In this document: positions 11,840-31,852 of the stretch, piece after piece
Layout: each line of letters opens with the position of its first letter
How positions within the stretch are numbered: position 1 is the stretch's first letter
Assembly (NCBI GenBank): GCA_025499625.1
Contig: JAFMVD010000057.1
Coordinates: 1 to 35,362 of the forward strand
Direction: 5' to 3'
Origin: Carboxylicivirga fragile
GTDB lineage: Bacteria; Bacteroidota; Bacteroidia; Bacteroidales; Marinilabiliaceae
Length of the DNA stretch: 35,362 nucleotides
Translations under genes and position numbers: made by a program
Notes under the pieces: model-generated
What the model was told of the DNA's origin: nothing
Seen by the model: the letters and a program-made list of their open reading frames with translations, nothing else
Databases searched by the model: none

Positions 11840-11865
11840 TAGCTAACAAGATTAAACGATAAATA

Positions 11866-14800
11866 ATGAAGTATATTAAATCAACAATGCTTCCTACTGG
11901 AAGTAATATTTATATAAATATGCTAAAACGGAATATGAAGTTTTTAAGCCTTTTTATCATCGTTTTACTATCAAGCTTTTATGCTAGTGCACAGACGCTA
12001 GAAGTGAGCGGTACTGTTATAGATGCTGAAACTCAGGAAGCTTTACCAGGTGTATCTATCGCGATTAAAGGCACAACCACTGGTACCATTACAGACTTTG
12101 ATGGAAATTATAAACTCAATGTTAGTAACCAGGATGCTGTTTTATCCTTTTCGTTTATAGGTTATGAGATACATGAAGTAGCAGTAGCAGGCCAGTCTGT
12201 CGTTAATGTGTCTCTGGTTTCTGATATGACAAGTCTGGACGAGGTTATGGTAGTAGCTTATGGTACTATTAAAAAATCAAATCTAACTGGTTCTGCTGTT
12301 GCTTTGGATAATAAAGAACTTAAGGATGTGTTTACATCCAATGTTTCATCCATGATACAAGGTAAGGTTGCCGGTGTTTATGCTGCTTCCACAAGTGGTA
12401 GGCCGGGAGCTACTGCGGATATTACCATTCGTGGTAAGGGTTCTCTTTCGGGTCCAACAGCACCGCTTTGGGTAGTAGATGGAGTTATCTATGGCAATTT
12501 TGATCCTGGAATCAGTCCTACTGATGTGGAGAGTATTACAGTGCTCAAGGATGCATCTGCTACATCATTATACGGTTCTTTGGGTGCTAATGGTGTTATC
12601 TTAGTGCAGACCAAGACAGGTGATGGAGTATCAAAGATTAGTGTGAATGCGTCGCGTGGATACTCTAAATTTAATATGGGTAACTTTTCCCTGATGAATT
12701 CACAGGAATTGTATGACTATCAAAAGACTTGGAATCCAAATGTTTCTGAAGATGTTTTAGCAACCGATACAGATTGGCTTGAGAATGGAACGCAAACAGG
12801 AGTAGCTCAGGAGTATAATGTTAGTTATTCAGGGGGAGGCGAGAAAATTAGCACCTATTTATCTGGAACTTATTATGGGGAAACTGGTACTATTAAGGGT
12901 TATGATTATGACCGTTATTCAGCGCTTGGTAACATCAATATTAAGGCTACTGAAAAACTGTCAATCAGATTAAATCTTTCAGGTGATTACAGCACTACAT
13001 ACAACCAAGAACATTCGCTATATAATATGTATACATACATGCCATGGGATGAGCCCTACCTTCCAGATGGTTCTGTGTTGGATCCACGAACAGAAGCCGG
13101 AGAAGACTATCTGCTAGAGAATGGTAAAGTTTGGTATGGTCGTGATAATAATAATTATCTATACGATTTGCAGTATAACTTCGGGACTTCCCGTGGAAAC
13201 AACTTCCGAATCAATTTGGGATTTGATTATAAGATTAACGATTGGTTAACTTTTTCCTCAATGAACAATATTGCACTTAATTTTGGTCAGAACGATTATT
13301 ATACCGATCCGCGTTCATTCGCTGGTATGGCAAATAATGGTAGTTATTCTGAAACACATAGCTTTACTCAAAGACGCTTTACTAACCAGTTACTCCGTCT
13401 GCAAAGGGACTTTGGACTACATTCAGTAAATAGTTTTATAGCCTGGGAGTATAGCGATTTCTATACAGAGAATGCATCAGCAGCTGGAAAAGGTGTAGGT
13501 GGTGGATTGCAAGTGCTTAATACAACAGCAGAAGCATTAAGCGTTGGTGGTTACAAAGGTGAAAGTGCTAAACAAAACCTAATGGCGAACATTCAGTATG
13601 CCTATGACAATAAATATCTAGCTACAGCTTCATTTAGTCGTCAGGGATCAAGTAGCTTCGGCCCTAACAATAAATACGGTAACTTCTGGTCTGCCAGTGT
13701 AGGATGGAATGCGCACCACGAATATTTTATTAAAGAAATTAATTGGTTGAATGTGCTTAAGCTTTCTGCTAGTATGGGGCAAATTGGTAATGCACCAGGA
13801 GGATTCCAGTATCTTGGCTATTATGCTTTTGTTGATCAGTATAATGGAAAGGGAGCAGCTACACCATATCAGAAAGGTAATCCAGATATTAGCTGGGAAA
13901 AAGTAACCACTTACAATACGGCTATTAATGCACGTTTGTTTGATCGTGTTGGCTTGAATCTGGATTTATATTACAAGAATAGTGATGGTCTGTTGACTTA
14001 TGTGCCATTAGCTGCAATGACTGGTTATAATGGCGTTTGGATGAACATTGGACAGGTTAGCAATAAAGGGTATGAATTAAGTATTTCACCGGAAATTATT
14101 AAAGGAAAGCGTTTCAGATGGGATATGACTATTAATCTGGCATACAATAAAAACCGTGTGGAAGAGTTGTATGATAATCAAGCTGTTAATCGTGGCAATA
14201 ACCGATTTGAAGTGGGGTATGACATGGATTCATATTATCAGCGTGTATGGTACGGAGTGAATCCAAATAATGGAGATCCATTGTGGGAGAGAGTTGAAGA
14301 AGAAGTGGATGGAGAAGGAAATGTGATTGGCGAAACAATAAGTTTGACTTCGAATTATGCAGACGCAACACTTCAGTTCACAGGAACTAAAGGAACACCT
14401 AGCTATGTTGGAGGTATTTTTAATTCTTTCAGCTTTGACAATTTTACACTGTCTGCAAACATATCTTTTGTTGGAGACGTGTATAAGTATAACAGCAGCC
14501 GCGAGTTATTTGATAGTGATGGTTCGTACGTTGGATTCAATAATATGAATCTGATGGATGGCTGGAGTCGTTGGGAGAAGCCTGGTGATGTAGCTACGCA
14601 CCCGAAACCTTATGACGGTGGTTTGAATGCCAATAAAGTGTCGTCACGTTATCTTGAAGATGCCAGTTTTATTCGTTTACGTAACGTGAACCTATCGTAT
14701 ACTATCCCGACAAATTTGGCGGAACGCTTGAAAATTAAGAATGCCTCGGTATATGTCAGTGCAGATAACCTGATTACCATTACCGATTGGTCAGGAGTAG

Positions 14801-14868
14801 ATCCAGAAACAGGAGCATTGTATCCTATTTCGAAAAAGGTATTGTTTGGCGTAAGAGTAGATTTTTAA
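11866..14868 (+). CDS. susC: SusC-like TonB-dependent outer membrane transporter
   Basis: This 1000-residue outer-membrane barrel imports oligosaccharides with TonB energy and pairs with the SusD protein downstream. After a signal peptide (ending near FYASAQ, residue 43) it has the carboxypeptidase-D-like domain (VSGTVIDAETQEALPGVSI, about 48-125), a TonB box region DEVMVVAYGT (about 125-134), the plug domain (GADITIRG-type motif ATADITIRGKGS, about 182-193) and a long barrel ending in the aromatic VLFGVRVDF. No STN domain is present, so it is not an anti-sigma-linked type. ATGs at 11920 and 11935 would give a more usual signal peptide. It is the second gene of the HTCS-controlled run. Confidence 0.96.
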   Translation: MKYIKSTMLPTGSNIYINMLKRNMKFLSLFIIVLLSSFYASAQTLEVSGTVIDAETQEALPGVSIAIKGTTTGTITDFDGNYKLNVSNQDAVLSFSFIGYEIHEVAVAGQSVVNVSLVSDMTSLDEVMVVAYGTIKKSNLTGSAVALDNKELKDVFTSNVSSMIQGKVAGVYAASTSGRPGATADITIRGKGSLSGPTAPLWVVDGVIYGNFDPGISPTDVESITVLKDASATSLYGSLGANGVILVQTKTGDGVSKISVNASRGYSKFNMGNFSLMNSQELYDYQKTWNPNVSEDVLATDTDWLENGTQTGVAQEYNVSYSGGGEKISTYLSGTYYGETGTIKGYDYDRYSALGNINIKATEKLSIRLNLSGDYSTTYNQEHSLYNMYTYMPWDEPYLPDGSVLDPRTEAGEDYLLENGKVWYGRDNNNYLYDLQYNFGTSRGNNFRINLGFDYKINDWLTFSSMNNIALNFGQNDYYTDPRSFAGMANNGSYSETHSFTQRRFTNQLLRLQRDFGLHSVNSFIAWEYSDFYTENASAAGKGVGGGLQVLNTTAEALSVGGYKGESAKQNLMANIQYAYDNKYLATASFSRQGSSSFGPNNKYGNFWSASVGWNAHHEYFIKEINWLNVLKLSASMGQIGNAPGGFQYLGYYAFVDQYNGKGAATPYQKGNPDISWEKVTTYNTAINARLFDRVGLNLDLYYKNSDGLLTYVPLAAMTGYNGVWMNIGQVSNKGYELSISPEIIKGKRFRWDMTINLAYNKNRVEELYDNQAVNRGNNRFEVGYDMDSYYQRVWYGVNPNNGDPLWERVEEEVDGEGNVIGETISLTSNYADATLQFTGTKGTPSYVGGIFNSFSFDNFTLSANISFVGDVYKYNSSRELFDSDGSYVGFNNMNLMDGWSRWEKPGDVATHPKPYDGGLNANKVSSRYLEDASFIRLRNVNLSYTIPTNLAERLKIKNASVYVSADNLITITDWSGVDPETGALYPISKKVLFGVRVDF

Positions 14869-14894
14869 CATTGAATCCTTTTTAAACTAAGAGT

Positions 14895-16565
14895 ATGATA
14901 ACTAAAAATATATATTCGATCATTATGATTTTGCTGGCATTTTCAATAACTGCCTGCGATATTACTAGAGAGCCCTTTCAGGATTTATCTGATGACAAAG
15001 TATTTGCTGATGAGTTGGGAATTGAAGCAGCGGCCTTGGGTACATATGCCCTACTGAAAAAGAATGGATTTATGCGACCTTACCATTTTCATGGCGAATT
15101 TGGAGGTGATAATATTGCACTAAGTGGGTCTACTACTGATAATTTGTTTTATATGTATAATTATCAGCATATCCCAACTAATGGACATTTGAATAGTTTA
15201 TGGTCTACTTGTTACCAAGGAATAGTGAATGCCAACAAAGTGATTGCGAATGCTGAGCAAGGTACTCCTCGATTAAATCACGTGATCGGAGAAATGTACT
15301 ATTTACGTTCATTCTTCTATTTGAATTTGGTATCCATCTGGGGAAGACCATATAATCAAGATCCAAATGGTAATATGGGGGTACCTATTATTTTGGATGC
15401 TGAGCCTGATGTGAATAGCCTTCCAGGAAGGGCAAGTGTTAAAGAGGTTTATGACCAGATTGTATCTGACTTAGAGGTCGCTGCTGAGTTAATGAGTGAG
15501 TTTAAACGTGTAGATAGTGAGTATCCAATTTATGCTTCAGAGCAGGCTGCTTATGCATTGTTATCACGAGTACACCTTTATATGGAAGAAAATGTAGAGG
15601 CAGCTGAGTACGCAACTAAAGTGATTGAATCTCGTAATTTCGAATTAATTACTGGAACAGCATATGAAACTTTCCCGACGATGGTACCCGAAGATAATTC
15701 AGAAGTAATCTTTGCCTGTCGTGCATTGAAAGATGAAGATGATTATGGTTGGTATGCCTTTGGAGGTATGTATGCTACCATTGATGGTGTTGGATGGGGA
15801 GAGATGTATGCCTCAGAACCTTATCGTAATTTGTTGGAAAAGAATCCAGGCGACCGCAGGAGCAAATTTATTGAGCCGCAGTATGTGGATGATGGAACTT
15901 ATGAGTTGACTTATTCTTATGATAAAGCAGCACCAACGGGGGCAAGAATGTTTCAGATGTATAAAGTAACTGATAATGTTGGCACTTGGGAGTACGAATA
16001 TAATGGTGGTACTCACGCTGTAATGACTGAGGAAGTGGATGGTGTAATGAAATATTACATTACCGAAGGCGAGCATATTAGTGAAAAGACTTATGTACGT
16101 GTTGATAAAACAATGAAAGTTCGTAATGGCTATCCTAAGTATTTTGTTCTTAAATGTTCGAATCAGGAAGGGCAACCACAATTGTTTTCGCCAATTATTT
16201 CACGTTTGGCAGAGATGTATTTGAATCGTGCGGAGGTGAAGGCTAAAGCTCTTGATGTGGATGGTGCACTGGACGATGTGAATGTAATAAGAGAACGCGC
16301 GGGTATACCAATATATACTGCTGTACCTGACGGGAAAACGATACTGGATGTTGTATTGGAAGAACGTCGTTTAGAGTTGGCTTTCGAAGCCCATCGTCGC
16401 TATGATATTTTCCGTAATGGATTGACATTGGATCGCAAATATCCTGGTACACATGATAAAGGATCTAATGCTTTGGTGACCATACCTGCTGATCATCTTC
16501 GAGTTGTTGACTATATTCCTGAAGCGCAGATTTTGGCGATGCCTAATCTAATTCAGAATCCATAG
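14895..16565 (+). CDS. susD: SusD-like glycan-binding lipoprotein
   Basis: This 556-residue outer-membrane lipoprotein forms the lid over the SusC barrel and captures glycan. The lipobox SITAC gives lipidated Cys21. An N-terminal SusD-like region (LSDDKVF..., MYYLRSFFYLNLVSIWGRPY at about 133-152) and the C-terminal RagB/SusD region (LAEMYLNRAEVKAKALDVDGALDDVNVIRERAGIP, then LEERRLELAFEAHRRYDIFR) are both clear. The length is typical. It starts 26 bp after susC, the same gap as before susC, and a terminator follows 14 bp after its stop, so the glycosidase genes downstream may need their own promoter or depend on readthrough. Confidence 0.96.
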   Translation: MITKNIYSIIMILLAFSITACDITREPFQDLSDDKVFADELGIEAAALGTYALLKKNGFMRPYHFHGEFGGDNIALSGSTTDNLFYMYNYQHIPTNGHLNSLWSTCYQGIVNANKVIANAEQGTPRLNHVIGEMYYLRSFFYLNLVSIWGRPYNQDPNGNMGVPIILDAEPDVNSLPGRASVKEVYDQIVSDLEVAAELMSEFKRVDSEYPIYASEQAAYALLSRVHLYMEENVEAAEYATKVIESRNFELITGTAYETFPTMVPEDNSEVIFACRALKDEDDYGWYAFGGMYATIDGVGWGEMYASEPYRNLLEKNPGDRRSKFIEPQYVDDGTYELTYSYDKAAPTGARMFQMYKVTDNVGTWEYEYNGGTHAVMTEEVDGVMKYYITEGEHISEKTYVRVDKTMKVRNGYPKYFVLKCSNQEGQPQLFSPIISRLAEMYLNRAEVKAKALDVDGALDDVNVIRERAGIPIYTAVPDGKTILDVVLEERRLELAFEAHRRYDIFRNGLTLDRKYPGTHDKGSNALVTIPADHLRVVDYIPEAQILAMPNLIQNP

Positions 16566-16578
16566 ATAAATACGAATA

Positions 16579-16616
16579 AATAAAAGGCGATGTTTATCGT
16601 CGTCTTTTATTTTTTT
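16579..16616 (+). terminator. Terminator after susD
   Basis: AATAAAAGGCGATG (16579-16592) pairs with CGTCGTCTTTTATT (16598-16611) through two G-U pairs and a 5-nt loop, followed by a T run at 16610-16616. It could set a lower expression level for the downstream enzymes. Confidence 0.85.
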
Positions 16617-16691
16617 AATAATAGACTTGGCCAATAATTAATTATTTTTATGGTCATTAATAAATTGAACAAACTAGTAAAATCAAAGTGT

Positions 16692-18182
16692 ATGTCATCA
16701 AGTAGAAGGTCATTTTTAAAAAATATAGCAGTTGGAGCAGGTGTTGCTGCTGCCGCACCATTAGCCGGATGTAGTACAGGTTCGAGAAGTAAGGAAGCAG
16801 TTGCTTATATACGTGAGAATGCCGAACGAGTACCTAAGATGGAGTTTAACATGTGTGGATATGCCGCTCCTAAATTGGATAAGGTACGTATCGGTTTTGT
16901 TGGCATCGGCGATAGAGGTATCGGAGCAGTTGACCGTATGGGTTTTATTGAAGGAGTAGAAGTGACCGCTCTTTGTGATACACGTCAGGCTGCCATTGAT
17001 GGTGCTCAGGCCTCACTGGTAAAAGCCGGATTGCCTAAAGCAAAAGAATTTACTGGAAGTGATACGTCTTTTAAAGCGCTTTGTGATAGTGGCTTGGTTG
17101 ATTTAGTTTACATTGCTACTCCATGGGAATGGCATGTGCCTGTAGCTATTGCTGCAATGAAGGGTGGAAGTCATACTGCTGTTGAGGTATCTACAGCCAG
17201 AACCATGGACGAATGTTGGGAAATGGTTGAGGTGTCAGAGCAAACTAAAAAGCATTGTATAATTCTTGAAAACTGCTGTTACGATTTCTTCGAGTTGCTT
17301 ACACTTAACATGGCACGTCAGGGAGCTTTTGGTGACTTGGTGCATGGTGAAGGTGCTTATATTCACGATTTGGATTATTGGCATTTTAATAAACCACAAG
17401 ATGATAAACCACGTGGCGATGGTGCTTACGATAAGTTGTGGCGCTTGCACGAAAATACTCGTAAAGCCAACGTATATCCAACGCATGGTTTAGGACCTAT
17501 CTGTCAGGCCATGGATATTAACCGTGGCGACCGAATGGATTATTTGACGGCTATGATGTCTGACGATTTTACTTTAGCTAATCGAATTAAAGAGCTGGCT
17601 CCAGAACGTCCCGATTTACAACAGTTTATTGGTAAGGAGATGCGCGGTAACATGGACATGCAAATGATACGTACCGTTAAGGGGCGTACCATGATGATTC
17701 AGCACGATATCAGTTCACCTCGTCCGTATTCACGTATACATATGTTGAGTGGAACCAAGTGTTTTGCTCAGAAGTGGCCGCTTCAGCACATTGCTTTTGG
17801 ACATAATAAGGCTGATGATGCTAAAATGAAAGAGCTACAAGAGAAATATGCTCCGGAAATTATTACGCGTATTGGCGAGATGGCTAAACAAGTTGGTGGC
17901 CATGGAGGGATGGATTTTATGATGGATTGGCGATTAATCGACTGTCTGCGCAATGGACTTCCTATGGACATGGATGTGTATGATGCTGCCGCTTGGTCGT
18001 GCATTACGCCACTTAGTGAATGGTCCATAGCCAATGGTTCTAAGCCAATTGATATTCCTGATTTTACACGCGGTAAGTGGAAGACTAATAAGCCTCTTGA
18101 ACTATCACTAAAAGGTGGCGGAACAACGGGTGTTCGTAATCTAAAGAAAGCGGACTCGGGCAAGCAATTGTCAGTAGATTAA
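16692..18182 (+). CDS. GH109-type NAD-dependent glycosidase (Tat-exported)
   Basis: This 496-residue protein belongs to the Gfo/Idh/MocA fold and matches glycoside hydrolase family 109, whose known members are alpha-N-acetylgalactosaminidases that use a tightly bound NAD+ in an oxidation-elimination-reduction cycle. A Tat signal (SSSRRSFLK, R5/R6) is followed by a hydrophobic core and AGC. The nucleotide fold starts at VRIGFVGIGDRGIGAV. GH109-like motifs include LENCCYDFFELLTLNMARQG, HGEGAYIHDL and YPTHGLGPICQAMDI. Tat export fits a protein that folds around NAD in the cytoplasm. The ATG at 16692 is preferred; an upstream in-frame ATG at 16650 would put 14 residues before the Tat motif. It lies in the PUL after the susD terminator. 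The substrate within GH109-like enzymes is inferred. Confidence 0.88.
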   Translation: MSSSRRSFLKNIAVGAGVAAAAPLAGCSTGSRSKEAVAYIRENAERVPKMEFNMCGYAAPKLDKVRIGFVGIGDRGIGAVDRMGFIEGVEVTALCDTRQAAIDGAQASLVKAGLPKAKEFTGSDTSFKALCDSGLVDLVYIATPWEWHVPVAIAAMKGGSHTAVEVSTARTMDECWEMVEVSEQTKKHCIILENCCYDFFELLTLNMARQGAFGDLVHGEGAYIHDLDYWHFNKPQDDKPRGDGAYDKLWRLHENTRKANVYPTHGLGPICQAMDINRGDRMDYLTAMMSDDFTLANRIKELAPERPDLQQFIGKEMRGNMDMQMIRTVKGRTMMIQHDISSPRPYSRIHMLSGTKCFAQKWPLQHIAFGHNKADDAKMKELQEKYAPEIITRIGEMAKQVGGHGGMDFMMDWRLIDCLRNGLPMDMDVYDAAAWSCITPLSEWSIANGSKPIDIPDFTRGKWKTNKPLELSLKGGGTTGVRNLKKADSGKQLSVD

Positions 18183-18198
18183 GCTCCTTAAGAATAAA

Positions 18199-18228
18199 CA
18201 ATGGTAACTTAATTTCTAGTTACCATTG
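18199..18228. terminator. Hairpin after the GH109 gene
   Basis: CAATGGTAACT (18199-18209) pairs perfectly with AGTTACCATTG (18218-18228) around an 8-nt loop. Only a weak T-rich stretch follows, so termination is plausible but not certain. It begins 17 bp after the stop codon. Confidence 0.55.
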
Positions 18229-18300
18229 TATTTAACCTGAATTATTCATTAGGAATCATTTTTTTATGATGAACTAATGGATCCATGAAGGTTAACCCCG

Positions 18301-18318
18301 TCACGATAATTATCGTGA
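18301..18318. promoter_or_regulatory. 18-bp perfect palindrome, possible operator
   Basis: TCACGATAATTATCGTGA is fully self-complementary with no spacer, which favours a dimeric DNA-binding protein over an RNA hairpin. I found no second copy in the window. The regulator is unknown. Confidence 0.45.
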
Positions 18319-18513
18319 TAGAAAATCACCATTTTGGTATTTTTACCAAATGGATGATTTGCTTTATCGTTATGCATTTAGGCTATTTTTTATTATTCGA
18401 ATGCATAGTTTGGGTTTAAGTGCCTCTAAGTTGCGAAATCAAAAACAGACTTAATTCATTATTAAAGGTCTTAAGGTGTTAAGAATTTACACCTTCATTC
18501 TCTTAGTATATTT

Positions 18514-20076
18514 ATGAAAGTAGATATGAGATCAATACTAATTAGTTTCATAATTATAACATTGGCGTTTTTCATGGCTTGTTCTTCCGATTCTCCATCA
18601 CCAGAGGAAGGAAGGCAGAAAGAAGAAGATGTCAGTTATGAATCATCCGCAAAGTACAATTTAAACATTGTTTATTTCGTTCCCACTGATATTAGTGAAA
18701 GAAATGAATGGCATCGGCGATTAAGTGAGATTCTTCTTCATGGTCAGTCTTTTATTTTGAAGCATATGAACGAATATGGTTTTGGTAATATGACCGTAAA
18801 TATGTTTGTTGATAAAACCTTGGGGCGTGTTAAAATTACCAAGATAAGCGGAGAACATGCAACGAGTTATTATCCCTATGAAGGTGGTGGTGTCAAGATG
18901 ATCGAAGAGATAGAATCGTATTTTAATAGTCATCCATCAGAAAGAAATAGTGATCATACTTTAGTATTGATACCAGTCAAAAATCCGGATCCAGATAAGC
19001 GTGATATTCCCTATTATGGCTATGGGCGATACTGCTTTGCTTTAGATTATGACGATATGGACATAGCCTATCTAAAGGATGAGGATGAAAGAGGACAGAA
19101 AGCTACAACATACATTGGAGGACTTTTACATGAATTAGGGCATGCCCTTAATTTACCTCATAACAAACAAACTGTTTCGGACGATAACAACCCTAATAAA
19201 GGTACAGCTTTGATGGGCAGTGGTAATTATACCTATGGCAAATACCCAACATATCTGACAAAAGCGAGTTGTGCCATATTAAATAATTGCCAGGTTGTAA
19301 GTGATAGTGAGTCAATTGTTTTCTACCAAGGAGCTTCGTTAGAGGTGGAAGGTATTCAGTCTAGATATGAAGGTGGTGATTTAGTAGTATCGGGTTCTAT
19401 TGAAACGAATACGCCGGTAAGTCATGTTAATTTTTACAATGACCCGGCTACTGACAATGCCGATTATGATGCAGTTTCCTGGTGTGTTGAGGTTATTAAT
19501 AATGCCTTTGAAGTGAGAATGCCTGTTAATGATTTATTTCTAAAAGGAAATACTCCTTATGTACTTCGGCAGCGGTTTTTACATGAAAATGGAGAGATTT
19601 CAACTTTTTCTTATGCCTATGAATTCATAGATAATGAGTTATTTATTGAATTTGGAGACAAGGACTATCTGGACAGAAGTCAATGGGCAGTAATCGATTT
19701 TAGTTCGGAAGAACAAAATGAAAAGGCGGCTTATGTACTTGATGGTGATAAGCAAACATTTTGGCATTCAAGATGGTCAACTAATGTAGCGTCATACCCT
19801 CACTACCTCTCCATTGATATGGGGCAGATCCAATCGCTTAATGGCTTTACTTTTGTGCAACGCGATGGCATGAGAAAAGTAAAGGATATAGAGATATTCA
19901 TTAGTTCAGATAGTCAAACCTGGGAAAGTAAAGGAAATTTTGTGCTCAAAAACATTAATACTGCACACCACGTGGTTTTAGAGGAAGCCTGTAGTTGCAG
20001 ATATTTTAAAGTGGTTGCCAAATCGGCTTTTGATCAGGAGCAGTTTGCTGCAATGGCTGAAATAATGTGTTTTTAG
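18514..20076 (+). CDS. Metzincin-like lipoprotein protease with F5/8C domain
   Basis: This 520-residue lipoprotein has a lipobox MAC with lipidated Cys23. Its catalytic domain (about 45-265) carries the zinc motif HELGHALNLPH, with ligands H206, H210 and H216 and catalytic E207, and a likely Met-turn at M234 in ALMGSGNY. This fits the metzincin pattern HExxHxxGxxH except that asparagine replaces the usual glycine. An Ig-like region (about 270-375) and a C-terminal F5/8C domain (about 388-520, DGDKQTFWHSRW) follow. It probably cuts glycoproteins at the cell surface. It does not match the M60 mucinase motif (HExxH with a distal Glu) by eye. It lies in the PUL after a structured 331-bp gap and before the DUF3472 gene. 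Confidence 0.75.
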   Translation: MKVDMRSILISFIIITLAFFMACSSDSPSPEEGRQKEEDVSYESSAKYNLNIVYFVPTDISERNEWHRRLSEILLHGQSFILKHMNEYGFGNMTVNMFVDKTLGRVKITKISGEHATSYYPYEGGGVKMIEEIESYFNSHPSERNSDHTLVLIPVKNPDPDKRDIPYYGYGRYCFALDYDDMDIAYLKDEDERGQKATTYIGGLLHELGHALNLPHNKQTVSDDNNPNKGTALMGSGNYTYGKYPTYLTKASCAILNNCQVVSDSESIVFYQGASLEVEGIQSRYEGGDLVVSGSIETNTPVSHVNFYNDPATDNADYDAVSWCVEVINNAFEVRMPVNDLFLKGNTPYVLRQRFLHENGEISTFSYAYEFIDNELFIEFGDKDYLDRSQWAVIDFSSEEQNEKAAYVLDGDKQTFWHSRWSTNVASYPHYLSIDMGQIQSLNGFTFVQRDGMRKVKDIEIFISSDSQTWESKGNFVLKNINTAHHVVLEEACSCRYFKVVAKSAFDQEQFAAMAEIMCF

Positions 20077-20162
20077 TAATAAGTAAGATTAATTGATAAA
20101 ACGCTCTTAACCTGATCTTTATGTGATCATATAAGGCAATGGTAGATTTTTTAAAGTAATAG

Positions 20163-20192
20163 TCCGGACCTAATAATTATTGAGGTGTCGGA
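20163..20192 (+). repeat. Leader hairpin before the DUF3472 gene
   Basis: TCCGGACCT (20163-20171) can pair with AGGTGTCGGA (20183-20192) with an internal bulge, about 20 nt before the start codon. It could affect translation, but the structure is modest. Confidence 0.3.
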
Positions 20193-20212
20193 GTTTATAA
20201 AGAAATATAATC

Positions 20213-21538
20213 ATGAAATATATAAATTGGTTTCAGAATTTAGTTTTTGCAGCTATGTGTATAGTATACATTGGCTGCACAGGTTGTAGTAAAGATGATG
20301 ATCCGGAACAAATTAAAGTACCGGAGATGAATATTAAAGTACCTGTTGGAGGAAATGCCTGGGTAGTTGATGATCCTTTTAAAGGAGGTCATTTAATTTC
20401 CGACGAGGGATTACAATCATGGACAAGTAAAGGTGATAAAATCAGAGTATATTTTAAATTGCCCAAGGCTGGTGAGCTAAATGTTGGTTTGCTATCGAAA
20501 GTACAAAAGGGCACTTCAACCATTAAGTGTACTGTTGATGGGAAAAGCATCGAAAAGGAAGTGGATAATACATCTTTAAAAACCAATTACATCGGAACGT
20601 TTGAGGTTTCCGAAGCCGGATATCATTTTGTAGAGCTTGAAGGTGTCTCAAGAGAAGAAGGTGTTTTTGCTGATATAACTGAGGTAAAATTAGGGGGCGA
20701 AGCATGTAATGGAAAAATGTACTTTGTAAATGAGGAGTATTATTGGGGGCGTAGAGGACCGTCGGTACATTTAGGATACGAGGTTCCGAGTGCAGCTTCC
20801 AATGTTGAATATTTTTACAATGAAGTAACAGTCCCAGAAGGGCAAGATGTGATTGGTTCGTATTACATGGCCAATGGTTTTGGCGAAGGCTATTTTGGCA
20901 TACAGGTTAATTCCGAATCAGAGCGTAGAGTTTTGTTTTCGGTATGGAGTCCTTTTGAAACCGATGATCCAAGTTCAATTCCTGAGGATGAAAAAATCAT
21001 TCTTGTTAAAAAGGGAGAAGGTGTTTCTACCGGCGAATTCGGGAATGAAGGATCGGGTGGACAGAGTTTTCTAAGGTATAATTGGATTACGGGCAATACC
21101 TATCAGTTTTTATTGAAAGGCAAACCTTTAGCTGATGGTTATACACAATATACTGCTTGGTTCAAAGGACCGGAACTTCAGGACTGGAGATTAATCGCCA
21201 GTTTCAAGCGACCTAAAACACAAACGTGGTTAACTAACCAATATTCATTTTTAGAGAATTTTCATACCGAAACTGGTGCCATTTCGCGCATGGCTAAATA
21301 CAATAATCAGTGGGTGCGCGATACTAATGGAGATTGGTTTGAAATGACAAAAGCGAAATTTACGGCCGATGCTACTGCTCGAAAAGAGTCACGTATGGAT
21401 TATGCCGGAGGTGTTTCAGATGGTATTTTCTTTATGAAGAATTGTGGTTTCTTTAATGAAACAACTCCTATTGATAGTCACCATATGCGCACAGAGTTGG
21501 GTGTAGAGCCAGTAATTGATTTTGATAATTTGCCTTAA
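20213..21538 (+). CDS. DUF5077/DUF3472 lipoprotein
   Basis: This 441-residue lipoprotein has a short signal with a cysteine-rich lipobox, YIGC or CTGC, so Cys22 or Cys25 is lipidated, followed by SKDDD. The first half (about 38-155) resembles DUF5077, a beta-sandwich with carbohydrate-binding character. The second half (about 170-400) resembles DUF3472, with EEYYWGRRGPSVHLGY and LRYNWITGNTYQFLLKGKP. These two domains occur together in Bacteroidota, often in PULs, but no reaction is established for them to my knowledge. Its position between the protease and the GH2 enzyme makes a glycan-binding or accessory role likely. It is 136 bp after the protease gene. Confidence 0.8.
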   Translation: MKYINWFQNLVFAAMCIVYIGCTGCSKDDDPEQIKVPEMNIKVPVGGNAWVVDDPFKGGHLISDEGLQSWTSKGDKIRVYFKLPKAGELNVGLLSKVQKGTSTIKCTVDGKSIEKEVDNTSLKTNYIGTFEVSEAGYHFVELEGVSREEGVFADITEVKLGGEACNGKMYFVNEEYYWGRRGPSVHLGYEVPSAASNVEYFYNEVTVPEGQDVIGSYYMANGFGEGYFGIQVNSESERRVLFSVWSPFETDDPSSIPEDEKIILVKKGEGVSTGEFGNEGSGGQSFLRYNWITGNTYQFLLKGKPLADGYTQYTAWFKGPELQDWRLIASFKRPKTQTWLTNQYSFLENFHTETGAISRMAKYNNQWVRDTNGDWFEMTKAKFTADATARKESRMDYAGGVSDGIFFMKNCGFFNETTPIDSHHMRTELGVEPVIDFDNLP

Positions 21539-21564
21539 AATAGTTAAGTTAAATATGTTTCTTA

Positions 21565-24827
<3,263 letters not shown>

Positions 24828-24932: not shown

Positions 24933-25993
24933 ATGGATTTAATTCAAAATACGAACGAATATAAAAAGTGGATTGAGGAATTAAAATCAGAGATTCAGAA
25001 GTCTCAGATTAAAGCGGCTATTTCTGTGAATCAGGCACTTTTGGATTTATATTGGAGGATTGGAAAAGCAATTTCGGAGAAAATAAATGAAGGAAATTGG
25101 GGAACGTCGGTTGTGGAAAATGCATCGAAGGATTTAAGAATTTATTTTCCAAATCAGCGAGGATTTTCTCGTTCGAATCTTTTCTCGATGAGAAAATGGT
25201 ATGATTTTTACACAAAATCAAGACTTGAGATTGAAAAAGTCCAGCAACTTGTTGGACAAATTCCATGGGGCATAATGTGTTGATTATCACAAAGGCTGAT
25301 ACTATAGAAGAAGCTGTTTTTTATATTAACAAAACAATTGAAAATAATTGGTCTCGGGCAGTTTTGGAGCATCAGATCGATTTGAATTTTTATAAACGTT
25401 CAGGAAAAGCAATAACAAATTTCAATACTACATTACCAGAACCACAATCAGAATTAGCGATAGAGACACTGAAAGATCCATACAAATTTGATTTTCTGAC
25501 TTTAAAAGAAAAGGCACTAGAGAAAGACATTGAGGAACAACTAGTAAAGCATATCACATCATTTCTTCTTGAACTTGGAGGTGGTTTTTCTTTTGTTGGG
25601 AGACAAGTTCCTGTAAAAATTGACGGCGAAGACTTCTTTATTGACTTACTATTCTATCATATCAAATTGAAATGTTATGTGGTTGTCGAATTGAAATCCG
25701 TAAAATTCAGAGCAGAATATGCAGGGAAAATGAATATGTACCTTTCTGCGGTTGACGATTTAATGAAAAGTGAAAGTGAAAATCCAACGATAGGATTACT
25801 TCTTTGTAAAAGTAAATCGGAAGTGATAGCAGAGTATGCACTACGAGGAATCTCTCAACCAATTGGGGTTGCAGAATATGAAATTGTAAAATCTATACCA
25901 TCTGACTTAAAGCCTGAGTTGCCAACTGTAGAAGAGATAGAACAAGAATTGGCTTCAACAATGTATAAAAATAATAACCGTGATGATGAGTAA
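24933..25993 (+). pseudogene. DUF1016/YhcG PD-(D/E)xK nuclease, frameshifted
   Basis: Two overlapping frames together make one YhcG-type protein of about 352 residues. The first (24933-25283) carries the DUF1016 N-terminal domain (ALLDLYWRIGKAIS, FSRSNLFSMRKWY) and ends VGQIPWGIMC. The second (25265-25993) continues HNVLIITK. The joint IPWG-HNVL is the family's normal sequence, so one G is missing from the G run near 25268 (four Gs where five would keep frame). The C-terminal nuclease core is intact: D127, E142 and K144 in IDLLF and VVELKS. The second frame has its own ATG at 25265, so two polypeptides could be made. YhcG-like proteins are accessory nucleases often found with restriction or mobile genes; here it interrupts catabolic genes. 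Confidence 0.85.
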
Positions 25994-26173: not shown

Positions 26174-27445
26174 ATGAACTATAAACGAATTATACAAATT
26201 GTTCTGCTAATGGCAGTGCTTGTTTTAAGTACTTACTTGTTCAAACAAGCTGATACTTATACTTCGAGTGCTGCTTTTTGTAATAGTTGCCATGTTCATA
26301 ATCATGCTCAACTGTCCTGGGAAGGGTCAACTCATTACATCGAATCTGAAGAGGAGCTTAGCTGTGTTTCGTGTCATCTTCCCCCAAAAGGAGAAGGTTT
26401 TTATCGTGAGAAAATTAAAAGAGGTTTTAAGGATGTTTACGCCTATTATTTTAAAGATTCTGTGGATCATAATTGGGAGTTGAAGTCCAGGCCAGAACAA
26501 GCCAGGGAACATACATTTAAAGCCTCTTGTTTAGAGTGCCACCCTAAACTGTTTCCTATTCAGTTATCGCCAAATGGTGAAATAGCCCATTGGCATTATC
26601 AGCAGCATGAAACAGATATGCATTGTATCGATTGTCATTTAAATGTTGGACATGGACCAGGCGGAAAAGCATCTCATAATTTTGAGTTATTGAACACAAC
26701 TATAAAAACTGATACCTTATATCTGGTTTCGGCACAGATACGCGATTTAAAGAGTTTTACTGAAACCATTCCTCAAAGTAGTATTGGTTTTGATATGATT
26801 GCCATTGAAAAAGGAGATTCATCTTTTTTTATTGGGAAAGCCGAGGTAAGCTGGGATGAGTATTTATTGTTCCTAAGAGAAACAGAATCAGAAGGCAGAA
26901 GTGAGAATGAGATCGATGGCTTTAGTGGAGCTACACCACCATGGGGTAATCCTGATCAAGGTTGGGGAATGGGAAGTCGTCCGGCCATTACCATGACGCA
27001 TCATGCAGCAAGTATGTATTGTAAATGGTTGTCGGTACGAACCGGGAAAAGCTATCGCTTGCCAACTGAGGCGGAGTGGGAGTATGTAGCCAGGCAGGTA
27101 ATTACAACAGAATCAGAATTGGTTAATACCATCAATTCAGATAAAACAAAAACCATAGAGCCGCAAGAGGTAAGTCCTGATGTACTTGGTTTACATCATT
27201 TGTTTGGCAATGTCAAAGAGTTTTGCGCCGATGAATTTGAGAAAGGCAGCAAAGAGCATGTTCTGAAAGGAGGTTCTTTCAAATCAGAAAAGACAAATTA
27301 TCGAGCTGATTATCGGGAAGCGACACAGCACGATCATTGGATGAAAACCGATCCGCAAATACCCAAAAGCATTTGGTGGTATTCCGATTGTAATGATGTT
27401 GGCTTTCGTTTGGTATTAACTTATCAGAATACAGAAAAACCGTAA
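26174..27445 (+). CDS. NapC/NrfH-like tetraheme cytochrome fused to SUMF1-like domain
   Basis: This 423-residue protein joins a membrane-anchored multiheme cytochrome to a SUMF1 (FGE-sulfatase) fold. The N-terminal helix (about 5-23) anchors it. Four CxxCH heme motifs follow: CNSCH, CVSCH, CLECH and CIDCH (about residues 36, 64, 119 and 151), in the NapC/NirT/NrfH pattern with CHVHNHAQLSW after heme 1. From about residue 205 comes the SUMF1-like domain: RLPTEAEWEYVAR, LFGNVKEFCADE, VLKGGSF, NDVGFRLVL. The cysteine pair that makes formylglycine is absent (GGSFKSEKTNYRADYR), so it is probably not a true FGE. ATGs at 26168 and a TTG at 26165 are alternative starts. The next gene starts 4 bp later. 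An electron-transfer role from menaquinol is inferred from family knowledge. Confidence 0.8.
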   Translation: MNYKRIIQIVLLMAVLVLSTYLFKQADTYTSSAAFCNSCHVHNHAQLSWEGSTHYIESEEELSCVSCHLPPKGEGFYREKIKRGFKDVYAYYFKDSVDHNWELKSRPEQAREHTFKASCLECHPKLFPIQLSPNGEIAHWHYQQHETDMHCIDCHLNVGHGPGGKASHNFELLNTTIKTDTLYLVSAQIRDLKSFTETIPQSSIGFDMIAIEKGDSSFFIGKAEVSWDEYLLFLRETESEGRSENEIDGFSGATPPWGNPDQGWGMGSRPAITMTHHAASMYCKWLSVRTGKSYRLPTEAEWEYVARQVITTESELVNTINSDKTKTIEPQEVSPDVLGLHHLFGNVKEFCADEFEKGSKEHVLKGGSFKSEKTNYRADYREATQHDHWMKTDPQIPKSIWWYSDCNDVGFRLVLTYQNTEKP

Positions 27446-27449
27446 TGAT

Positions 27450-28751
27450 ATGGGCAAATATTCACGTCGCGAGTTTATAAATAATACCCTGTTGGCAGGT
27501 GGATTAACATTGGCATCGAGCTTGGGGAGTTGCAAGTCAAAATCGGTAAAACAACCCTTGGATGCTGCACCTGACGGACCCGTGCTTAAAGCTGGTTTAA
27601 TTGGTTGCGGTTCACGGGGTACAGGTGCTGCAGTTAATTACCTCGATGCAGGGCCAAGTTTGGAATTGGTGGCCTTGGGCGATGTGTTTGAAGATAAGTT
27701 AATAGCTTGCCGACAAAACCTAAAGGAAAAAAAGGGAATTGAAATAGATTCGGAAAAGTGTTTTGTTGGCTTAGATGCGTTTCAAAAAGTGATTGATGCT
27801 GGTGTTGATGTGATACTACTGGCAACTCCGCCTTATTTTCGTCCTGAGCATTTCGAAGCGGCAGTTAAAGCCCGTAAGCATGTGTTTATGGAGAAGCCGG
27901 TTGCCGTTGATCCGGTGGGCGTACGCAGTATTCTTATTAATTCTGTGAGAGCAGAGGAACTTGGTTTAAGTGTTGTAACGGGTACAATAAAGCGCCATCA
28001 GGCCGATTACCTCGAAACCTATGAGCGCATTAAATCCGGAGCCATTGGCGATATTGTATCGGGCAATTGTTATTACAATCAAGGTAAATTGTGGCATGTT
28101 AATCCACGTGCTGAGTGGACTGAAGTTGAGTCGATGATTCGGAATTGGGTTAATTGGACCTGGTTATCGGGTGATCATATAGTGGAGCAGCATATTCACA
28201 ACCTCGATTTAATGAATTGGTTTATCGGTTCTCATCCTCTTTCGGCCACAGGCTTTGGCAGTCGTCAGAGACGTACCACTGGCGATCAGTTCGATAATTT
28301 CAGTGTGGATTATATCTATCCTAACAAGGTGCATGTGCACAGCATGTGTCGACAAATTAATGGCTGTACTAACAAGGTGAGCGACCTAATTCGAGGCACG
28401 CATGGTTATACCAATTGTGAGAATACCATATTTAATGCCAAAGGCGAAATGAAATGGAAATACGAATTAACAGAAGAACAGGAAAAAGACAAGTGGCACT
28501 TTTTTTGGCGTGCTTTTGCCCAGGAGCATATTGATTGGGTGACTGCCATCAGAACCAAGGTGCCCATCAACGAAGGTAAACAAATAGCCGAAGCAACATT
28601 AATGGCGATTATGGGAAGAATATCAGCATATACTGGGAAAATTGTTACTTGGGACGAAATGCTTAACAGCGATCTTCGAATTGGCCCCAAGGTTTTTGAT
28701 ATGTTTACTACAGGCATAAAAAAGGCTATCCCAGTAATGGGGACATTGTAG
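27450..28751 (+). CDS. Tat-exported Gfo/Idh/MocA-family oxidoreductase
   Basis: This 433-residue protein has a Tat signal (YSRREFINNT) with a lipobox-like LGSC, so it may be a lipoprotein. The dinucleotide-binding motif LIGCGSRGTGAA starts near residue 50. The family motif MEKPVAVD is near 147-154, and DHIVEQHIHNLDLMNWF, near 245, carries the HxxxD-type catalytic region. Family members oxidise or reduce sugars with a tightly bound NAD(P). Tat export after folding with cofactor is known for glucose-fructose oxidoreductase. It differs from the GH109-type protein at 16692 in lacking the NCCYD motif. It lies 4 bp after the cytochrome-SUMF1 gene and is probably co-translated. Its substrate is unknown; its 3' end meets the minus-strand SRPBCC gene. 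Confidence 0.88.
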   Translation: MGKYSRREFINNTLLAGGLTLASSLGSCKSKSVKQPLDAAPDGPVLKAGLIGCGSRGTGAAVNYLDAGPSLELVALGDVFEDKLIACRQNLKEKKGIEIDSEKCFVGLDAFQKVIDAGVDVILLATPPYFRPEHFEAAVKARKHVFMEKPVAVDPVGVRSILINSVRAEELGLSVVTGTIKRHQADYLETYERIKSGAIGDIVSGNCYYNQGKLWHVNPRAEWTEVESMIRNWVNWTWLSGDHIVEQHIHNLDLMNWFIGSHPLSATGFGSRQRRTTGDQFDNFSVDYIYPNKVHVHSMCRQINGCTNKVSDLIRGTHGYTNCENTIFNAKGEMKWKYELTEEQEKDKWHFFWRAFAQEHIDWVTAIRTKVPINEGKQIAEATLMAIMGRISAYTGKIVTWDEMLNSDLRIGPKVFDMFTTGIKKAIPVMGTL

Positions 28752-29314: not shown

Positions 29315-31852
29315 TTAATCCGTATTTTTTATCTCACTCACAATGCTTGTTGATAAATTATTAATCAATTGAAAAATACTTTTTAAAAAATTCTTTTCCA
29401 CAGGCGAAAGCTCTGCCAGTTCAATTGTATTTACAGGGTGTTCACCAGCCTGAATTAAGCGGGATTGATTCTTAAGGCGTATTTTCATCACATAATTGTA
29501 AGCTAAACTTATGTCCTTGTAAAAATCCTCTGATATTTTTCCAGCCTCGTAAAGCGCCTTAATACGTTCGGTCGTATTTGTGGTTTCAATACCATGTTTA
29601 AGCGCACTTACTCTGCTGTATTTTACAATTGGTGTTAATATCGTTTTTAGGTCAATGGTTTTTTCTTTTGATGTATGATCATTTCCCACCAGGTTACCAA
29701 AGGCATTAATTGGCGATTTAAAATTGCTGGTCATCTCAGCTAGTTTTAGCAGGAACTCGTTATTTGATTGAGCCAAATTCATAACATGTTGTCTCAAATC
29801 ATCACTCAGTTGATTGTCTCCGTATATGGTTCTGAAATCAATAAAGGTACTGGCCTCAATCAATCTTTCAATATCTGGTTCATCTACCCAAGATGAGAAA
29901 TAGGCTTTCCATTTTGAGAGCGGTTGGCACCATTTGGGGTTACAAGCCATCATGCCACCCTTGCAATAGTTATAACCAATTTGATCGAGCGAATCTGATA
30001 TGTAATTGGCCAATTCCAGGAAGTACTCTTGTACTTTTTCATTGCTATGGGCATCGTCGTAAATTAAGCCATTGTCCTGATCGGTTAGGAGTGTTTGCTC
30101 CCTTCTGCCTTCACTACCAACTACCATAAACACATATTTGCATGGGGCAGGGCCATAGGTCTCAATGCCAAATTCTATGATTTTCCGAGTGATTCTATCT
30201 GAAATTGAAGAAGCAAAAGCAACGGTGTCGTATGTGTTTTCATTGCTTTCGGCTAATGCATGAATGAGTGTTGGTATTTTGTTGTGAATGATAGCTAATT
30301 CTTCAACTGTATTGGTGTTTTCTATTTCGAGCAATAAGTAGGCAAGCGTATTGTGCTGGATGGAAATAATACTCTCGTAAGAAATAACGCCCGAGATGGT
30401 ATTATCGTGATCGGTAGTTACCAGGTGAGAAACTTTTTGGCTAGTGAAAGATAACAAGGCTTCGTGCAGACTGGCCGAGTCCGAAATGGTGCATATAGGC
30501 GCAGTCATGATGCTGGCAACCGGACTGTCTAAATTACTACTTTTAGCCACCGCTTTTTTGGTCACATCCTTGTTGGTTACAATGCCCAGAATGATCTTAT
30601 CTTGTTTTACCAGTAGAAAATCTTTTTTCAAACGACTCATTTTATTGGCGGCCATTTGAATGCTGGTATCAGCTGTGCAAGCTGCGATTGATTGAACCAG
30701 GTGTTTAATAGGCTGCTTCATCAATAAGAGAGAAGTCTTAACTTCTCCTGATAGTTTGTCTGATTCCCGTTCAGCTACTTCTTTTCGCGATACTTCTTTG
30801 GTTGTAATAATGTAACCATAGGTATCGGCGTATTCTACCTTCGAAATGGAGATGATCACTTCCTTTAGTATGTTGTCGCTACAAATGAGAGACGACTCAA
30901 AGGAGAATGATTTAGTGTTATCTTTGAAGTTGGGATGAATGCTTTCCCACTTAGTGGTAAATAATTCTTCTAGTTTTTTATGGCTAATTTCTTCTTGACT
31001 AAAGCCACAAAGTGTTCTGAATTTTGCATTCGAGAAAATAATAGATTCATTCAGAAACATGAGTGTTCCTTCATTTGATGCCTCTACCAGTGTGACGTAT
31101 TTTTGCCGTGATTTATGTAATTCTGCAGTTAGATTTCTCCGCTTTAGTTCAATTCCTAAGCTTTGGCGAACCACATAAAAAAGTATCAATGCGATGATGA
31201 AGGCAATAATCAAGGAAATGATTAAAAGGGAGTTTTTTAGCGCTTTAATCTCTTCTTCAACATCATCGAGGTAGATACCCGTTCCAACGATCCAGCCCCA
31301 GGGTTCAAATGATTTAACCGACGATAATTTAGGGACAATTTTTGTGGAATCATCCTTCCACTGCCACATGTAATCGATAAATCCTTCATTTTGTTCTTTT
31401 ACAACTTTAGTGGCTTCAACAAAGAGTTTTTTACCATTGGCATCGTAATAGTTGTTTAAATCCGTTCCAATAAGTTCTGGGCGGTAAGGATGCATTATCA
31501 TTGTTGGTTTTTCATCAATTATCCAGAAATAATCTTTTTGCTCGGAGCCATAACGTATTTGCGCTACTCTTTCTTTAGCCAGCTGTTGTGCTTCTTGCAG
31601 ACTAATTGTTGAATCGGCATATTCACTTTCGTATTCACTAATTAAACTCCAGGCTGTATTGGTTAGTTCTGCAATCATTTCCTTTTTATCATCCATTATG
31701 GCTTTCTCAAAAAATGGAATGAAGAAAACCTGAATGGAAGCAATAAACAATATGATTGCCAAAGAGGATGGTAAAACGACACCTAAGTAGAAGCTTCTGT
31801 TGTTTTTCAAAATGTGGGCATTAACGATATTAAAAATGAAATCGGATAGCAT
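29315..31852 (-). CDS. Cache-PAS-CBS-DUF294 nucleotidyltransferase signalling protein
   Basis: This 845-residue membrane sensor has a transmembrane helix (about 20-43), an extracytoplasmic single Cache domain (about 45-200, with DYFWIIDEKPTMIMHP and WGWIVGTGIYLDDVEEEI), a second helix (about 205-228), a PAS domain (about 245-360), a CBS pair (about 385-500), and a GlnD-like nucleotidyltransferase (about 565-690) with GSEGRREQTLLTDQDNGLI at 579-597. A DUF294 C-terminal helical region ends the protein. The G-S then DxD pattern suggests an active nucleotidyltransferase, perhaps modifying a target protein in response to a small extracellular ligand such as a carboxylate. It is upstream of the SRPBCC gene. 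The full chain in one protein is uncommon. Target and ligand are unknown. Confidence 0.85.
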   Translation of the reverse strand: MLSDFIFNIVNAHILKNNRSFYLGVVLPSSLAIILFIASIQVFFIPFFEKAIMDDKKEMIAELTNTAWSLISEYESEYADSTISLQEAQQLAKERVAQIRYGSEQKDYFWIIDEKPTMIMHPYRPELIGTDLNNYYDANGKKLFVEATKVVKEQNEGFIDYMWQWKDDSTKIVPKLSSVKSFEPWGWIVGTGIYLDDVEEEIKALKNSLLIISLIIAFIIALILFYVVRQSLGIELKRRNLTAELHKSRQKYVTLVEASNEGTLMFLNESIIFSNAKFRTLCGFSQEEISHKKLEELFTTKWESIHPNFKDNTKSFSFESSLICSDNILKEVIISISKVEYADTYGYIITTKEVSRKEVAERESDKLSGEVKTSLLLMKQPIKHLVQSIAACTADTSIQMAANKMSRLKKDFLLVKQDKIILGIVTNKDVTKKAVAKSSNLDSPVASIMTAPICTISDSASLHEALLSFTSQKVSHLVTTDHDNTISGVISYESIISIQHNTLAYLLLEIENTNTVEELAIIHNKIPTLIHALAESNENTYDTVAFASSISDRITRKIIEFGIETYGPAPCKYVFMVVGSEGRREQTLLTDQDNGLIYDDAHSNEKVQEYFLELANYISDSLDQIGYNYCKGGMMACNPKWCQPLSKWKAYFSSWVDEPDIERLIEASTFIDFRTIYGDNQLSDDLRQHVMNLAQSNNEFLLKLAEMTSNFKSPINAFGNLVGNDHTSKEKTIDLKTILTPIVKYSRVSALKHGIETTNTTERIKALYEAGKISEDFYKDISLAYNYVMKIRLKNQSRLIQAGEHPVNTIELAELSPVEKNFLKSIFQLINNLSTSIVSEIKNTD

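Follow-up and report, generated by a model that had tools for sequence, protein, structure and literature searches.

We consider it an even chance that two adjacent genes of Carboxylicivirga fragile, found in a window of 35,362 nucleotides (the whole stretch of DNA that was analysed), encode a membrane-bound periplasmic sugar dehydrogenase, most likely acting on a glycoside, in which electrons would pass from the sugar to nicotinamide adenine dinucleotide (NAD), then to flavin mononucleotide (FMN), to a set of hemes and finally to menaquinone. The first gene (P0001) combines a NapC-type tetraheme cytochrome and a SUMF1-like domain in one protein, and the second codes for an oxidoreductase of the Gfo/Idh/MocA family (P0002), which would place the pair among the extracytosolic flavin and heme electron-transfer systems. 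A first-pass annotation of this DNA had described a membrane anchor, four CxxCH motifs in NapC/NrfH style and a SUMF1-like domain in one frame, followed 4 bp downstream by a Gfo/Idh/MocA protein with a twin-arginine translocation (Tat) signal, and both descriptions are borne out by the profile matches, the predicted helix and the ortholog alignment. Two features go beyond it, given that P0002 looks like a Tat-exported lipoprotein and that the SUMF1-like domain carries a motif for flavinylation by ApbE. The features of the two genes are the following (aa, amino acids):

26174..27445, forward strand: NapC-type tetraheme cytochrome and SUMF1-like domain in one open reading frame (P0001), 423 aa from the ATG
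26180..26263, forward strand: N-terminal membrane-anchor helix, residues 3-30 (helix in the model and hydrophobic stretch)
26189..26653, forward strand: NapC/NirT domain, residues 6-160 (PF03264; NrfH 2j7a, E 4e-07)
26279..26293, forward strand: heme-binding motif 1, CNSCH (36-40), invariant in 59 fused proteins
26363..26377, forward strand: heme-binding motif 2, CVSCH (64-68), invariant in the same 59
26411..26434, forward strand: K80 to D87, predicted quinol site, aligned to NrfH Lys82 and Asp89
26528..26542, forward strand: heme-binding motif 3, CLECH (119-123), invariant in the same 59
26624..26638, forward strand: heme-binding motif 4, CIDCH (151-155), invariant in the same 59
26819..27331, forward strand: SUMF1-like domain, residues 216-386 (PF03781; Foldseek matches to formylglycine-generating enzyme (FGE), PvdO and EgtB)
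26915..26935, forward strand: D248-GFSGA-T254, predicted ApbE flavinylation motif (consensus D-x-x-[S/T]-G-A-[S/T]), with T254 as predicted FMN acceptor
27347..27379, forward strand: subfamily signature TDPQIPKSIWW (392-402), from the alignment, absent from 19/19 other SUMF1 paralogs
27450..28751, forward strand: Tat-exported Gfo/Idh/MocA oxidoreductase, predicted lipoprotein (P0002), 433 aa (PF01408 and PF22725)
27450..27533, forward strand: twin-arginine signal with lipobox, Cys28 (alignment of 72 orthologs)
27603..27620, forward strand: GCGSRG dinucleotide-binding turn (52-57), with G52, G54 and G57 conserved
27891..27899, forward strand: EKP motif with catalytic lysine K149, invariant in 33 aligned proteins
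28197..28208, forward strand: HNLD (250-253), catalytic histidine region, with H250, N251 and D253 invariant

The fusion has an alternative start, a TTG 9 bp upstream that would give 426 aa. Both of its domains exceed the cut-offs of their Pfam profiles, NapC/NirT with E 4e-20 and 72.6 bits versus 24.1, and FGE-sulfatase/SUMF1 with E 2e-18 and 67.2 bits versus 23.3; a comparison with PHROGs gave no useful result. The alignment of 59 fused proteins, from which 9 further fused reading frames lacking the literal string RLPTE were dropped, leaves the four CxxCH motifs unchanged. When the NapC part is aligned to NrfH (PDB 2j7a), K80 pairs with Lys82 and D87 with Asp89, two quinol-site residues of NrfH, and H42 pairs with Met49; K80 and H42 are conserved in 59/59 of the fused proteins and D87 in 58/59. 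An identification of the NapC part as NrfH itself was rejected, with 71.4 bits for TIGR03153 versus the equivalog cut-off of 134.2. The genome has a separate NapC-type gene adjoining a cytochrome c552 gene (PF02335), i.e., a NrfHA pair, so the fusion is something other than NrfH. The AlphaFold2 model of the fusion has a predicted local distance difference test score (pLDDT) of 71.8 and a predicted template modelling score of 0.56, and is poor in the heme region and at the motif loop. The cysteine pair that forms formylglycine, already noted as missing in the first-pass annotation, is absent throughout: none of the 68 distinct fused proteins has a cysteine within 8 residues after GGx[YFW], and a formylglycine-generating activity of the domain was rejected on these grounds.

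P0002, which starts 4 bp past the stop of the fusion, has the marks of its family, namely the Rossmann domain (PF01408), the EKP lysine, the catalytic histidine and a matching fold. G52, G54, K149, H250 and D253 are invariant across 33 aligned Gfo proteins, and the region of H250 presumably has the catalytic role that it has in the Gfo/Idh/MocA family. The AlphaFold2 model of P0002 (pLDDT 87.4) finds its best Foldseek match in YjhC with NAD(H), followed by inositol dehydrogenases, aldose-aldose oxidoreductase (AADH) and glucose-fructose oxidoreductase (GFOR). Two candidate families were rejected, the BT_2158 glycoside 3-dehydrogenases (NF058561, 21.5 bits versus a cut-off of 750) and IolG, for which P0002 is also below the family cut-off. 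Because the twin arginine is found in 72/72 orthologs, a simple lipobox pattern in 66/72 and a cysteine at the position of C28 in at least 95%, P0002 looks like a Tat-exported lipoprotein.

The two genes are inherited together. Scanning genome contigs turned up 14 near-full-length relatives of the fusion (L003-L016), all recorded as Bacteroidota, and beyond them SUMF1-type matches only, among the best 80 of 422 relatives. Within the order, 39 of 295 genomes have a match to the fusion (E <=1e-25), one of them (G187) to the NapC part only, where the contig ends; G669, a genome from another class of the phylum, also has the fusion in full length. Given these relatives in other public assemblies, the fusion is not an assembly artefact nor confined to this genome; it is real and old. 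A natural split of the fusion in G266 was rejected, since the NapC-only and SUMF1-only pieces lie at contig ends and are the product of broken contigs. The neighbour is not random either, as the tabulation called for by the first-pass annotation makes plain: across families and in G669, the ortholog of P0002 is the next gene downstream on the same strand in 65 of the 71 distinct fused loci with flanks, at a median gap of 27 bp. In the other six it lies upstream on the same strand (L009), is convergent (L137, L171), is the third gene downstream (L138), is the fifth behind 9.3 kb (L187) or is not found within the stretch (L136). Relatives of P0002 (E <=1e-60) are likewise present in 39 of the same 295 genomes, and fusion and Gfo gene occur together in 38 of the 40 that have either, G187 having the fusion only. 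The phylogenies are congruent with this. In a tree of 77 SUMF1 domains, computed by a quick method without bootstrap, the 31 fused ones (G669 included) lie on one side of a single branch with a Shimodaira-Hasegawa approximate likelihood ratio test (SH-aLRT) value of 100, and in a sampled tree of 33 Gfo proteins from fused and 33 from unfused loci, those from fused loci form one clade (SH-aLRT 100).

The closest relatives outside the fused clade are exported proteins without NapC, found in Flavobacteria, Chitinophagaceae, Sphingobacteria, Saprospiria, Rhodothermota, Balneolota, Planctomycetota, Verrucomicrobiota, Acidobacteriota and Armatimonadota. Fused and unfused members have the C-terminal signature DPQxPKSxWW in common, which is absent from the 19 other SUMF1 paralogs. 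A SUMF1 gene was recognised in 51 unfused loci. In 32 of these it is followed directly, on the same strand, by a relative of P0002; in 2 others such a relative lies immediately upstream, and in 1 it is the second gene downstream. None was found in the remaining 16, some of which end at a contig edge. Because the unfused subfamily also adjoins relatives of P0002, the conserved core is the SUMF1-Gfo pair and not the heme. In the three Verrucomicrobia proteins tested (L021, L025, L040), a SUMF1 domain of this subfamily is joined instead to PSCyt1, an unrelated c-heme module, and L021 adjoins an ApbE gene. The heme modules thus vary by lineage around a constant SUMF1-Gfo core, a pattern that one would predict for a SUMF1-like domain through which electrons leave the dehydrogenase. 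In Maribacter-like genomes (L018, L019, L048, L215, L216) the SUMF1 subfamily was observed without Gfo and followed by a YceI-type protein; ApbE comes next in some of these loci, and most have genes of PSCyt1/PSCyt2/PSD1 cytochrome type and a protein with an RR signal (the families were tested in L018).

In the available portions of PMC12052999, the ApbE consensus is given as D-x-x-[S/T]-G-A-[S/T], with FMN going onto the last residue. Residues 248-254 of P0001, DGFSGAT, match this consensus exactly, and the identical string occurs in the NQR2/RnfD-family (NqrB-like, PF03116) protein of the same genome, which is clustered with an FMN_bind protein and an apbE gene. Asp248 and a Thr or Ser at position 254 are kept in all 110 aligned SUMF1-like domains (59 fused, 51 unfused), and the motif is found in 0/19 other SUMF1 paralogs. 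As a background, 4 of 1705 other proteins of the fetched loci contain the exact motif.

ApbE genes recur beside the unfused relatives. Of 63 unfused loci, 21 have one within 4 genes and 20 have one within 3 kb; PF02424 was confirmed in 8/8 of the adjacent ApbEs tested, and in the 21 loci with ApbE no other protein with D..[ST]GA[ST] is encoded within 4 genes of the SUMF1 gene. At the scale of whole genomes, considering only the best SUMF1 match in each, ApbE is within 3 kb of SUMF1 in 12/37 unfused genomes, where 0.155 are expected and 200000 simulations gave at most 5. These 37, with a best match of 1e-56 or better, come from a phylum search in which 80 of 395 genomes matched, and 3 fused genomes and 40 others, many with more distant SUMF1 paralogs, were left out. 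In a tree of 55 ApbEs, 25 of the 33 adjacent ones fall in one clade (SH-aLRT 98), with 3 label changes versus 17.5 in shuffles; the non-adjacent ApbEs in this tree are solely from Bacteroidota in the wide sense, and two adjacent pairs are duplicates. ApbE is encoded in all 47 genomes examined. Taking the motif into account, the SUMF1-like part, to which the first-pass annotation gave a role in ligand binding or docking, is more probably a covalent-FMN redox module than a part for these roles only.

The following mechanism can be proposed. The Tat-exported, lipid-anchored Gfo/Idh/MocA protein would oxidise a sugar hydroxyl, possibly at C3 of a glycoside, with a tightly bound NAD. ApbE would have attached FMN to Thr254 of the SUMF1-like domain, and within a complex of the two proteins the NAD held by Gfo would pass its hydride to this FMN. 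The flavin would then split the electron pair and give the electrons singly to the four NapC hemes of the fusion, from which they would be delivered to menaquinone in the membrane. c-Type hemes cannot take hydride from NAD one electron at a time without a go-between, and a flavin can. The step from hydride to single electrons between NAD and heme therefore needs a go-between, and a flavin fits this role. A chain from sugar through Gfo-bound NAD, FMN and tetraheme to menaquinone has a place for every conserved part and is energetically downhill. The wider generalisation is put forward a little more tentatively: the SUMF1 fold would be a new class of ApbE substrate, a covalent-FMN carrier that links Gfo-locked NAD to the quinone pool by way of c-type hemes, those of NapC in Bacteroidales and of PSCyt1 in Verrucomicrobia. 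It could act as one hub for several Gfo dehydrogenases of a cell, and the motif variant DxxTRP[ST] would have evolved along with a dedicated ApbE lineage in Bacteroidota, Planctomycetota, Verrucomicrobiota and Acidobacteriota.

The sugar side of the proposal draws on the genes around the fused loci. Of the 71 loci, 35 have TIM-barrel proteins of isomerase/epimerase type, 12 have ThuA-like proteins, 10 a second, BT_2158-related Gfo and 8 a 3-keto-disaccharide hydrolase (PF06439, DUF1080); the same type of TIM barrel is near 20 of the 63 unfused loci. In L023, which is unfused, a GMC oxidoreductase, a protein of gluconate-2-dehydrogenase-subunit-3 type and PF06439 stand in a row, followed by SUMF1, Gfo and a TIM barrel. 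Such neighbours are the company of 3-keto-glycoside pathways, as these are described in the accessible parts of PMC9007349, PMC10628242 and PMC11300592. The window, like several relatives that include same-genus loci (7/71 loci), has a LacZ gene upstream of the pair, from which it is separated in the window only by two yhcG-like reading frames. A general link to gluconate or GMC enzymes was rejected, as a GMC gene was found in only 3 of the 12 genomes searched and not in that of the window. The periplasmic sugar oxidation or reduction module wired to the quinone pool, as suggested in the first-pass annotation, thus gains support from adjacency, from the co-occurrence in 38/40 genomes, from the NrfH-like Lys/Asp pair and from neighbours of 3-keto-sugar type; its substrate, direction and physical complex are what we infer.

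Several observations weigh against this interpretation. The exact motif is present in just 23 of the 68 distinct fused proteins, with Pro for Ala in 43 and V or I before Gly in 2, and in 36 motifs near FMN_bind matches of related genomes the Ala position is occupied by A (28), G (7) or S (1) and never by P. The NqrC-type FMN_bind protein of the same genome (L233) has DGISGGT, with Gly instead of Ala, which means that this position varies within an accepted target family. In the unfused proteins the exact motif is found in 5/51, and Gly is replaced in 42/51, mostly by Arg and next by Pro. None of the 71 fused loci has an ApbE gene nearby. Neighbouring ApbEs track the deviating motif, being present in 16 of 40 loci without Gly252, 1 of 9 with Gly252 and 0 of 71 fused loci, a pattern that could reflect a dedicated transferase for the changed motif and is also tied to phylogeny. 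The aligned stretch of canonical FGE has Ala at the Thr position and Asp at the first one, so D248 may be ancestral rather than a mark of flavinylation. The loop with the motif is poorly modelled (pLDDT <50 at residues 239-263), for which reason the flavin cannot be placed. As for the partner, one genome of the order (G193) has Gfo without the fusion, and 18 Gfo paralogs of the P0002 family (L296-L313, from 10 Bacteroidales genomes) stand in varied neighbourhoods with no SUMF1 gene beside them, meaning that Gfo may work without SUMF1; these extra paralogs could share one hub or work alone. Finally, no 3-keto-sugar genes adjoin the pair in the window or in the genus to which it belongs. With these points considered, the protein of the window itself is somewhat more likely than not to carry FMN.

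A SUMF1-like domain that has no flavin and only binds sugar or docks Gfo, with the electrons reaching the hemes otherwise or through a diffusible carrier, is a less likely alternative and comes near to the view of the first-pass annotation. The SUMF1 fold is known as a non-catalytic scaffold (the variable protein TvpA and PorK are among the Foldseek matches), and the deviation of most fused proteins from the exact motif, with no ApbE nearby, also speaks for this alternative; against it stand the invariance of Asp and Thr/Ser at the ApbE spacing (110/110), the absence of the motif from 19/19 other paralogs, the enrichment of ApbE beside unfused relatives and the requirement for a hydride-to-electron step between NAD and heme. 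The direction of flow assumed for the flavin-heme chain can also be questioned. Since NapC/NrfH proteins usually oxidise menaquinol and all of the domains are reversible in principle, menaquinol might drive the reduction of a keto-sugar or other organic acceptor by Gfo in a form of anaerobic respiration. We regard this as quite improbable, given that menaquinol (about -74 mV) is poorly suited to reduce NAD (-320 mV) or a sugar ketone, whereas flow in the oxidative sense is downhill. Two-substrate cycles are known from Tat-exported Gfo proteins that keep NAD(P) bound, such as AADH and GFOR, both of which are among the structural matches of P0002. P0002 might therefore run a closed NAD cycle like these or GH109, with the cytochrome serving another partner and the genes kept together for regulation, and the occurrence of Gfo paralogs without the fusion is compatible with this; nonetheless, the near-perfect co-occurrence and adjacency and the congruent clades make it very improbable. 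A SUMF1-like domain that acts on another protein to modify it, in the way FGE acts on sulfatases, is hardly credible when the cysteine is missing in 68/68 fused proteins, even if PF03781 matches above its cut-off and reading frames that look like sulfatases lie upstream in the same-genus loci L143 and L144.

Other parts of the window have features of their own. Upstream of the pair, on the same strand, positions 10919-24827 hold SusC/SusD-like genes, a GH109-like Gfo protein and the LacZ-type beta-galactosidase. Between these and the fusion, at 24933-25993, a nuclease gene of yhcG/DUF1016 type is present as two overlapping reading frames, the first with positions 1-95 of PF17761 and the second with positions 96-137, which points to a frameshift. 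Downstream, positions 29315-31852 encode one protein with a Cache domain, a PAS-like stretch, CBS and a DUF294 nucleotidyltransferase pair.

Each of the domains of this system is known, and it is their combination and the SUMF1 fold as an ApbE target that appear to be undescribed. In the open-licence literature searched, no paper joins NapC with SUMF1, ApbE or NapC/NirT with Gfo/Idh/MocA, or Gfo/Idh/MocA with formylglycine-generating and cytochrome. Among flavinylation surveys, PMC8238504 and PMC12052999 do not use the words formylglycine, SUMF1 or Gfo in their main texts, nor does the main text of PMC11334425 use formylglycine, sulfatase, Gfo or NapC. If the proposal is true, a new domain family is added to the targets of flavinylation, and a function is provided for a SUMF1-like subfamily that bears the label 'formylglycine-generating enzyme family' despite its missing catalytic cysteines. 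We know of no obvious route by which exported NAD-dependent sugar dehydrogenases recycle their cofactor in the periplasm, and a flavin-heme partner would explain it. It would also give sugars a way into the respiratory chain of gut and environmental Bacteroidales, with similar systems in other phyla.

Among known systems, the quinol dehydrogenases of the NrfH/NapC family (PF03264) resemble the fusion in the N-terminal anchor, the four CxxCH motifs and the aligned Lys and Asp of the quinol site. The fusion differs from NrfH in having His42 at the position of Met49, in its SUMF1-like domain and in being without a nitrite reductase partner, the NrfA-type partner being elsewhere in the genome beside another NapC. 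The extracytosolic carriers flavinylated by ApbE (NqrB, NqrC, RnfG, FMN_bind, DUF2271, DUF3570) are alike in the seven-residue motif, and ApbE is next door to some of the unfused SUMF1 relatives; the SUMF1 fold is not among the targets named in the available portions of PMC8238504 and PMC12052999. The periplasmic glycoside 3-dehydrogenase BT2158 of Bacteroides thetaiotaomicron is, like P0002, an exported Gfo/Idh/MocA protein of Bacteroidales, and disaccharide metabolism is a likely common theme; unlike it, P0002 is far below the family cut-off, and the accessible text of PMC11300592 mentions no electron-transfer partner of BT2158. The Agrobacterium GlycDH operon (eliminase AtOGE, hydratase AtHYD and a Gfo oxidoreductase) shares the TIM-barrel isomerase-like proteins beside Gfo, whereas its Gfo reduces 3-keto-glucose with added NADH and the operon, as described in the accessible text of PMC10628242, has neither a heme protein nor a SUMF1-like protein. 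The lactose 3-dehydrogenase LacABC with its 3-keto-disaccharide hydrolase relies on a GMC flavoprotein in place of the arrangement proposed here, and yet, according to the available portions of PMC9007349, it offers a parallel in that the periplasmic 3-oxidation of a sugar is fed into the respiratory chain and is accompanied by a DUF1080 hydrolase.

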